DNA of 33,531 bases from NCBI GenBank assembly GCA_009927705.1, contig RFMK01000115.1:1-33531 (forward strand), read 5' to 3'. Under the pieces are notes generated by a model that had not been told where the DNA came from, ran no database searches, and saw only the letters and a program-made list of their open reading frames with translations. Of this stretch, positions 28,857 through 33,531 are shown piece after piece. Origin of the DNA: Actinomycetota bacterium. GTDB lineage: Bacteria > Actinomycetota > Actinomycetes > Nanopelagicales > Nanopelagicaceae. Made by a program: the position numbers and the translations under genes. Each line of letters starts with the position of its first letter. Position 1 is the stretch's first letter.

Positions 28857-29252
28857 CTAGAGAGTCGTAATGAGTTCCTTCACGAGCGACTTGATTTGAT
28901 CTCTTATCGGACGCACAGCATCAACGCCTTGACCAGCCGGATCCTCCAACTTCCAATCTAAATAACGCTTGCCAGGGAAGAAGGGGCAGGCATCACCGCA
29001 ACCCATGGTGATGACAACATCTGAGCTTTCGACCGCACTTGTTGTGAGAACTTTTGGGATTTCTGAGCTGATATCAATACCTTCTTCAAGCATCGCAGCG
29101 ACAACAGCGGGATTGATTGAATCAGCAGGCGCTGAACCAGCGCTACGCACCTCAACCCAATCTCCGGCGAAGTGCGTCAAATACGCAGCCGCCATTTGGG
29201 ATCGCCCCGCATTGTGTACGCATACAAATAGAACGGAAGATCGTTTAGTCAT
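28857..29252 (-). CDS. arsC: Arsenate reductase, low-MW phosphatase-fold ArsC
   Basis: LFVCVHNAGRSQMAAAY P-loop, MGCGDACPFFPGKRYLDWKLEDPAG with additional Cys pair; start MTKRSS. Confidence 0.92.
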   Translation of the reverse strand: MTKRSSVLFVCVHNAGRSQMAAAYLTHFAGDWVEVRSAGSAPADSINPAVVAAMLEEGIDISSEIPKVLTTSAVESSDVVITMGCGDACPFFPGKRYLDWKLEDPAGQGVDAVRPIRDQIKSLVKELITTL

Positions 29253-29886
29253 TTCTTTTCTCCGCTTTCCATAATGAAAGAGCAATCAAGGATCCGATTA
29301 CTTGTGCAAATACAAATGCACCAACCGAACCAAATTCAATTCCGGATGGAGCATCGGTGAAGACACGCGACAATGTGACGGCAGGATTTGCAAATGAAGT
29401 AGATGAAGTAAAGAAATAAGCTGCAAAAATCCACAGTGGAATCAGTTTCCACACGCTCTTCTCATTGGATGTAAGTGCGAGATAAACCAGACCCATGGTC
29501 GCCACAATCTCTCCAATGAAGACTCCGGAACCACTCCGCTCGATTGTGCTTGAAGCAATCAACTTTGAGTCAAACATGGAATTCGCAATCAGTACTCCTA
29601 CGATGGCGCCAAGTACTTGTGCCACAACATAGAAAAGAAACTCTGTGAAGGAAGACTTTTTCCTCAACCACGATGTAAGAGTTACAACGGGGTTGTAGTG
29701 AGCACCGCTGATGGGTGAACCAACTTTGATAATAATTGCCAACGCAGCAGCGGTAACCGCAGCATTAATCAATAGACCCAAAGCCGAATCTGCTTTCAGG
29801 TAAGAGGCCATGAAAGACGATCCAACAACCGCGATGAGAAGGACTGCTGTGCCGATAAATTCAACTGCTAAATTACGTAACTTCAT
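29245..29886 (-). CDS. MIP/aquaporin family channel
   Basis: LAVEFIGTAVLL, GAHYNPVVTL (first NPA-like loop, NPV) and SFANPAVTLSRVFTD (second NPA); start MKLRNL overlaps the TauE-like stop. Confidence 0.9.
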   Translation of the reverse strand: MKLRNLAVEFIGTAVLLIAVVGSSFMASYLKADSALGLLINAAVTAAALAIIIKVGSPISGAHYNPVVTLTSWLRKKSSFTEFLFYVVAQVLGAIVGVLIANSMFDSKLIASSTIERSGSGVFIGEIVATMGLVYLALTSNEKSVWKLIPLWIFAAYFFTSSTSFANPAVTLSRVFTDAPSGIEFGSVGAFVFAQVIGSLIALSLWKAEKRND

Positions 29887-30632
29887 GAAATGACCCAGGT
29901 TTCTACTAAGGTGAAAAATGCTATAGCAAAGACGAAATATGCGAACGCGCGTTTGAGTGTTGCCGGAGAAACCTTGGAGCTTCGGTGTGATGCAATTCGT
30001 GAGATAACGAGAGCGACGAGAGCGATAATGATCGGTAACAACCAATCAACATCACTCCAGTGGCGGTAATGTGCAAAAAAGCCCGTCAAAGTATTGATCA
30101 TTATGATGAATAAAGAAGTGCCAGCAGCTTTCACAGGGGATACGTTGTAGAACAGAATCAAAATTGGAATGGCGAGGAAGCCACCACCGATGCCGAAGAG
30201 TCCGGTGAGCGCTCCGATAACGAGAGAGATTCCAATCAGAGCAAGAGGCGAAACCTTTCGTTCCGATTGTTGTTGCGGAGTTGGAACCAGCATCGATACT
30301 CCAGCGATGATTAGTACAAGCGCAAATCCAGTAAGCACATATTTCTCTGGAATTCTAGGTAAGTAATATGCACCAGAAAGATTTGTTATCAAGCCAATCG
30401 CCCAGATAACGAGAGCTTCCCTAATCAAAACCTCTCTCTGTTTGATACGTGGAAGTGCGCCCGAAGCTGCTCCGACAAAAACGACAAGGAGAGAAGCAGT
30501 CGTAGCAGCAACAGGGGATAGGCCGAAGACATAAATGAAGATTGGGACCGCAAGCATGGAACCGCCTGCACCGACAAAACCCAGTACTGAACCAATCGCC
30601 ATACCCGCGACAATGGCGAGGGCGATTTCCAC
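29883..30632 (-). CDS. TauE/SafE family permease
   Basis: GSVLGFVGAGGSMLAVPIF and GALTGLFGIGGGFLAIPILI repeated glycine-rich motifs; GTG start. Confidence 0.88.
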   Translation of the reverse strand: MEIALAIVAGMAIGSVLGFVGAGGSMLAVPIFIYVFGLSPVAATTASLLVVFVGAASGALPRIKQREVLIREALVIWAIGLITNLSGAYYLPRIPEKYVLTGFALVLIIAGVSMLVPTPQQQSERKVSPLALIGISLVIGALTGLFGIGGGFLAIPILILFYNVSPVKAAGTSLFIIMINTLTGFFAHYRHWSDVDWLLPIIIALVALVISRIASHRSSKVSPATLKRAFAYFVFAIAFFTLVETWVIS

Positions 30633-33307: not shown

Positions 33308-33394
33308 GATTTGAGGCTATTTGGTATCGGAGGAGCGTGGCGCAGGTGTCACTTTGGTAACGGCTTGTGTCGTGTCGGGGGCTCTCGCTAGAGT

Positions 33395-33410
33395 TCGAAC
33401 AAATGTTCGA
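33395..33410. promoter_or_regulatory. LexA/SOS box, actinobacterial (Cheo-type)
   Basis: TCGAAC-AAAT-GTTCGA is an exact match to TCGAAC-N4-GTTCGA; dyad extends to TTCGAACA-AA-TGTTCGAA (33394-33411). Confidence 0.9.
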
Positions 33411-33531
33411 AAACCAAGATATCCCACGCCCAGAAATCTTCCTGGCCGGCGGTGAGCCAATCGAGTTCACCCACAACGGCCAGCGCTTTCGTATTCACTC
33501 CGTCCTTTCAACATGGCATGAATCTGGTGGA
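33403..33531 (+). CDS. DUF6504-like protein, 5' partial at window edge
   Basis: Open frame MFENQDIPRPEIFLAGGEPIEFTHNGQRFRIHSVLSTWHESGG to window end; TAGAGT -10 8 nt upstream; family call from the F.V.SVL..W.E.GG pattern. Confidence 0.65.
   Translation, partial: MFENQDIPRPEIFLAGGEPIEFTHNGQRFRIHSVLSTWHESGG

Follow-up and report, generated by a model that had tools for sequence, protein, structure and literature searches.

A DnaE2B-[ImuB-C]-PolY-RecA module was predicted in 2026 and has been reported from Actinobacteria only, with Tessaracoccus lapidicaptus as an example (PMC12926913). In Streptomyces venezuelae, LexA boxes at dnaE2-dinP are bound in vitro, and mitomycin C induction was ~31-fold and 14-fold (PMC9380542). 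In the related Streptomyces coelicolor, the Y-family member has been reported to be inactive (PMC6511836). The lexA gene of Mycobacterium tuberculosis is a leaderless SOS gene, with its start codon at the transcription start (PMC2897130). DnaE2 cassettes under dual control, SOS genes without a leader and the gene module are each already known singly.

Here we analysed a 33,531-nucleotide stretch of DNA (the window) that forms the entire contig C65 of a 1.12-Mb draft genome in 179 contigs, 83% complete. By sequence, the gene set of the operon that starts at its right-hand end matches the predicted DnaE2B-[ImuB-C]-PolY-RecA module: both have a second DnaE, a Y-family polymerase judged active by its motifs and carrying a RecA-like N-terminal motif, and a small stand-alone protein, here predicted to be all-beta, and both lack ImuB. 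However, the published account concerns protein composition; its text mentions neither LexA nor Nanopelagicales, and an operator-embedded start is not described (PMC12926913). The adjoining arrangement of dnaE2 and a Y-family polymerase gene is shared with S. venezuelae dnaE2-dinP, but the box there starts at -68 from the start codon rather than on it, and the available text mentions no DUF6504 (PMC9380542). Control of a DnaE2 cassette by both LexA and PafBC, the latter predicted here, recalls the mycobacterial ImuA'-ImuB-DnaE2 mutasome (PMC10421592, citing Adefisayo 2021). That cassette, however, is split and contains ImuA' and a catalytically dead ImuB (PMC10421592), whereas here there is no ImuB but a motif-intact DinB. 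Unlike that of the DUF6504 gene examined here, the start codon of M. tuberculosis lexA has not been reported to lie within a LexA operator (PMC2897130).

Predicted promoter and operator of the DUF6504 gene

The initial annotation of the window had claimed a perfect LexA box that holds an ATG and is abutted by a -10 element, TAGAGT. The coordinates confirm this (Table 1): a predicted operator matching TCGAAC-N4-GTTCGA is present at the promoter, is by sequence a perfect actinobacterial LexA box, contains the ATG at 33403-33405, and is the single perfect match in the window as well as in the draft genome. Two one-mismatch boxes elsewhere in the draft (contigs C72 and C96) were set aside, as both lie within coding sequences. 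The annotation had overlooked one further conserved element, TGTCGG-N10-TAGAGT, which has the form of the PafBC DNA-damage promoter motif. A PafBC-dependent promoter would also be in keeping with so poor a -35.

Table 1. Features predicted at the right-hand end of the window
Feature	Position	Strand	Basis and remarks
Weak -35-like TTGTGT	33365..33370	+	18 nt before the -10; T at -37 is the sole invariant base
PafBC-type upstream element TGTCGG	33373..33378	+	followed by TAGAGT after exactly 10 nt; GTC-R-G shows no variation from -29 to -25 in 23 sequences
-10 element TAGAGT (TAnnnT)	33389..33394	+	final T common to the operator; all 23 same-genus sequences have T at -14, A at -13 and the final T at -9
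Predicted LexA operator (SOS box) TTCGAACAAATGTTCGAA	33394..33411	no strand	core TCGAAC-N4-GTTCGA at 33395-33410
DUF6504 gene, 5' end, 43 codons, MFENQDIPRPEIFLAGGEPIEF...	33403..33531	+	reading frame, weak PF20114 match, same-genus relatives align; cut by the contig end

The 16-bp core was identical in 24/24 genomes of the genus (Nanopelagicaceae) and was the sole perfect consensus box in 22 of them. Those relatives that bear names are Nanopelagicaceae, freshwater acI actinobacteria. In a genus alignment of 23 sequences (the window and 22 relatives, anchored on the box), all 18 box bases were invariant, while most flanking positions varied; the other invariant upstream positions were T at -37, GTC at -29 to -27, G at -25, TA at -14/-13 and T at -9, with A or G at -26. 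The gene upstream of the box is divergent and differs between lineages, indicating that the box belongs to the DUF6504 gene.

Neither lexA nor recA was found in the draft itself. In the genus mates, lexA was matched in 22 of 23 genomes, once as a contig-end fragment, and lies ~6 kb from recA, so that one assembly gap would explain both absences. LexA boxes were present upstream of lexA in all 14 same-genus loci checked and upstream of recA in 20 same-genus genomes. The initial annotation had counted the lack of a LexA gene in the genome as evidence against its reading; the gene is indeed missing from the draft, but it is present, together with its boxes, in the genus mates.

PafBC sites have been described as TGTCRG-N10-TAN3T, with either TGTCGG or TGTCAG as the upstream part (PMC8151990), and positions 33373-33394 of the window (TGTCGG-N10-TAGAGT) match this motif exactly. 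Among 108 family genomes with a perfect box, 100 carried GTCR-N11-TAnnnT abutting the box. The genome also encodes pafB-pafC as tandem WYL genes on contig C15 (HTH_PafC, E=1e-29). The motif showed no genome-wide enrichment in the genus (128 hits versus 131 for a reversed control), so the PafBC part rests on conservation at the DUF6504 promoter and at the promoter divergent from lexA. PafBC control of the operon is, on this sequence evidence, likely but unproven.

At three same-genus loci (L050, L059 and L063), TGTCRG-N10-TAnnnT followed by a LexA box precedes a LysM (Rv2719c/ChiZ-like) gene divergent from lexA. This is a second promoter with both damage-response elements, in this case with a leader. 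The same arrangement of PafBC motif and LexA box has been described for M. tuberculosis Rv2719c (PMC8151990).

Chance does produce short palindromes, but that the dyad is such a palindrome, or the site of another regulator, is extremely improbable. Simulated windows with the same dinucleotides contain on average just 0.004 perfect 16-bp boxes, and 0.0007 of the 18-bp kind, and this one is identical in every genome of the genus; the same motif stands at lexA and recA, and perfect boxes lie near the DUF6504-dnaE-dinB operon in most of 20 class-level loci. A stronger alternative is that LexA alone controls the operon and that the conserved GTCRG is part of a housekeeping promoter rather than a PafBC site. 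The missing genome-wide enrichment would agree with this, as would S. venezuelae dnaE2-dinP, which has been described as LexA-controlled (PMC9380542). We nevertheless regard it as rather unlikely, because both sequence and spacing agree exactly with the PafBC motif and are fixed in those 100 of 108 genomes while the surrounding spacer varies, because pafB-pafC is present in the same genome, and because the motif recurs at the LysM gene divergent from lexA, as for Rv2719c in M. tuberculosis (PMC8151990). Moreover, mycobacterial mutasome genes are under both systems (PMC10421592). Dual control by LexA and PafBC therefore remains our preferred reading.

The downstream operon and its products

The 43-codon DUF6504 fragment gave a sub-threshold Pfam match of 14.1 bits (cut-off 24.2) because the contig ends at 33531; a full-length same-genus protein scored 42.1 bits. 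In relatives, the gene order is DUF6504, a DNA polymerase III alpha paralogue (1,050-1,160 aa), DinB (~400 aa), DUF3040, mraZ and rsmH. Contig C145 of the draft starts within dnaE2, of which it holds the 3' part, and continues with dinB, DUF3040, mraZ, rsmH, an ftsL-like gene and ftsI, leaving an unassembled stretch of ~2 kb between C65 and C145. The order DUF6504-dnaE-dinB was found in most of the 20 loci spread over the class. The initial annotation placed the first gene of an SOS mutagenesis cassette at the end of the window; this proposal is supported by DUF6504, a second dnaE and dinB in genus and family relatives, and by dnaE2 (3' part) and dinB on C145. The initial annotation had also suggested looking to the right for imuA'/imuB/dnaE2/dinB; dnaE2 and dinB were found, but ImuB was not, the Y-family enzyme being an intact DinB.

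On C145 (2654-7284), the mutagenesis operon runs straight into DUF3040, mraZ, rsmH, the ftsL-like gene and ftsI. Read-through from it could link the cell-division genes to DNA damage.

The DinB of this genome retains the catalytic motifs HVDMDAFFASV and SLDEAF, and its activity is judged from these motifs only. Nearly every genome of the genus has one Y-family polymerase, which argues that there is no ImuB. An ImuB cassette (an ImuA-ImuB-DnaE2 mutasome with a dead ImuB and fused ImuB-C) was rejected, as the only Y-family enzyme is the intact DinB. Near the C-terminus of DinB lies a motif resembling the RecA N-terminus (EAQAAIDRAIERFGRGSVM, compared with EKQKALDTALAQIERQFGKGSVM in RecA), and none of 2000 shuffles was as good. 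Two DnaE genes were present in nearly every genome. In a tree built without a DnaE2B reference, the cassette DnaE grouped with class members in a separate clade, distinct from both replicative DnaE1 and ImuC; for the cassette polymerase, NCBIfam scores did not tell DnaE1 and error-prone DnaE apart.

DUF6504 is probably a stand-alone ImuB-C subunit, as judged from profile and fold comparisons. Comparison of the DUF6504 and ImuB-C profiles (hhalign) gave a moderate match (71.7%, E=3.5e-5), and the Pfam DUF6504 model matched the C-terminus of Shinella ImuB with E=9e-4, which is below the cut-off. The predicted fold is all-beta; the model had no significant match in the PDB, and a PDB sequence search returned none at E<=0.001. 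ImuB-C has itself been reported as a beta-barrel without a close PDB match (PMC12926913). A literature search under the name DUF6504 found no paper.

Several further occurrences of DUF6504 were observed. Many genomes of one large-genome family (f17) have two copies; one copy (L281) sits within a long open frame, and neither dnaE2 nor dinB is recognisable within 7 kb of it. The Arthrobacter conjugative plasmid pYA7-1a (4707-8240) carries DUF6504-dnaE with no dinB, and an SOS response-associated peptidase gene adjoins it on the opposite strand; this locus is an example of the DnaE2-[ImuB-C]-only form carried by a mobile element. Elsewhere in the window (28857-30045, minus strand), a low-molecular-weight phosphatase/arsenate-reductase-like ORF and its MIP/aquaporin-like neighbour may form a pair for arsenic detoxification.

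The start codon within the LexA box and its proposed origin

Across 11 genera, 86 family genomes whose box is perfect have the box ATG as the in-frame DUF6504 start, and the spacer in these was AAAT or ATAT and none other. Codon 2 is TTC in 86/86 genomes, although in the dnaE2 genes TTC makes up only 27% of the codons for Phe, in agreement with the initial claim that the operator constrains the N-terminal coding sequence (MFEN). Genus g17 comprises 18 genomes, among them Planktophila relatives of the IMCC26103 type; here DUF6504 starts 41-69 nt further downstream and its proteins lack the Met-Phe-Glu N-terminus. Both box arms are perfect in 18/18 of these genomes, while the spacer has become ATCT, ACTT or ACCT, with loss of the ATG, in 14 of the 18. 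Since g17 keeps the arms but mostly loses the ATG, it appears to be LexA that preserves the arms and translation that preserves the ATG; judged from these alignments, the repressor site and the start codon are separate constraints on the same bases.

The box could instead be an ordinary upstream operator, with DUF6504 starting elsewhere and the in-frame ATG a by-product of a preferred LexA spacer that often ends in AT. ATGs that are not starts do occur inside the boxes of other genes, such as the recA box TTAGAACAAATGTTCGGT, several loci have an additional ATG in frame further downstream, and a GTG at 33367 of the window is also in frame. This GTG, however, lies upstream of the -10, and 8 of 22 same-genus loci offer no in-frame start before the domain other than the box ATG. 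A by-product would also sit poorly with an ATG that is in frame across 11 genera with just two spacers and that is mostly lost in g17, where it is not the start. We therefore consider this alternative improbable and take the box ATG as the start.

The distance from the end of the -10 to the ATG is 8 nt, and no Shine-Dalgarno sequence was found for 85 of the 86 in-box starts, whereas several of the displaced starts do have one. With the -10 abutting the box and no fitting Shine-Dalgarno sequence, the mRNA is probably leaderless.

Taken as a whole, the site probably serves as promoter and operator for an error-prone polymerase operon that is induced in the SOS response and encodes DUF6504, DnaE2 and a putatively active DinB. 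A LexA dimer on the box would cover the edge of the -10, the transcription start and the initiation codon, thereby blocking RNA polymerase. RecA on single-stranded DNA would trigger LexA cleavage, and RNA polymerase, aided by PafBC at TGTCGG, could then start at or within ~3 nt of the ATG to give a leaderless mRNA. DnaE2, DinB (via its RecA-like motif) and DUF6504 might assemble with RecA for translesion synthesis.

A dnaE2 gene tree places the genera g6, g15 and g13, which lack the box-start, at the base; the box-start clade has a support of 0.98, and g17 is nested inside it as a single loss, so that the tree has a single gain and a single loss of the box ATG. In g13 and g15, the box follows the -10 at a distance of 8 nt, but it abuts the -10 in the box-start clade, suggesting that it shifted by ~8 bp toward the -10 when the ATG became the start. 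The box ATG would thus have been gained once within the family, the box ending up ~8 bp nearer the -10, and lost once in the Planktophila-type lineage. On balance, we favour the view that in one step, basal to most Nanopelagicaceae, the LexA operator moved onto the -10 and its inner ATG became a leaderless start. Since then, the 18-bp segment would have acted as a binding site for the repressor, as the transcription start and as the codons for Met-Phe-Glu, with PafBC activating the same promoter and two damage pathways thus meeting within ~40 bp; the Planktophila lineage would later have undone the overlap.

In the literature searched, we found no LexA operator containing a start codon and conserved over 11 genera with a PafBC element and a natural reversal. 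What appears to be new is therefore the promoter, in which predicted dual LexA/PafBC control is compressed onto a putatively leaderless, operator-embedded start. The locus provides a natural experiment in which selection for repressor binding can be separated from selection for a translation start on the same bases. It also gives DUF6504 a concrete and testable candidate role, that of small subunit in a DnaE2-DinB-RecA polymerase complex, and, with PafBC control as predicted, would show streamlined freshwater bacteria compressing two DNA-damage responses onto one mutagenesis operon.
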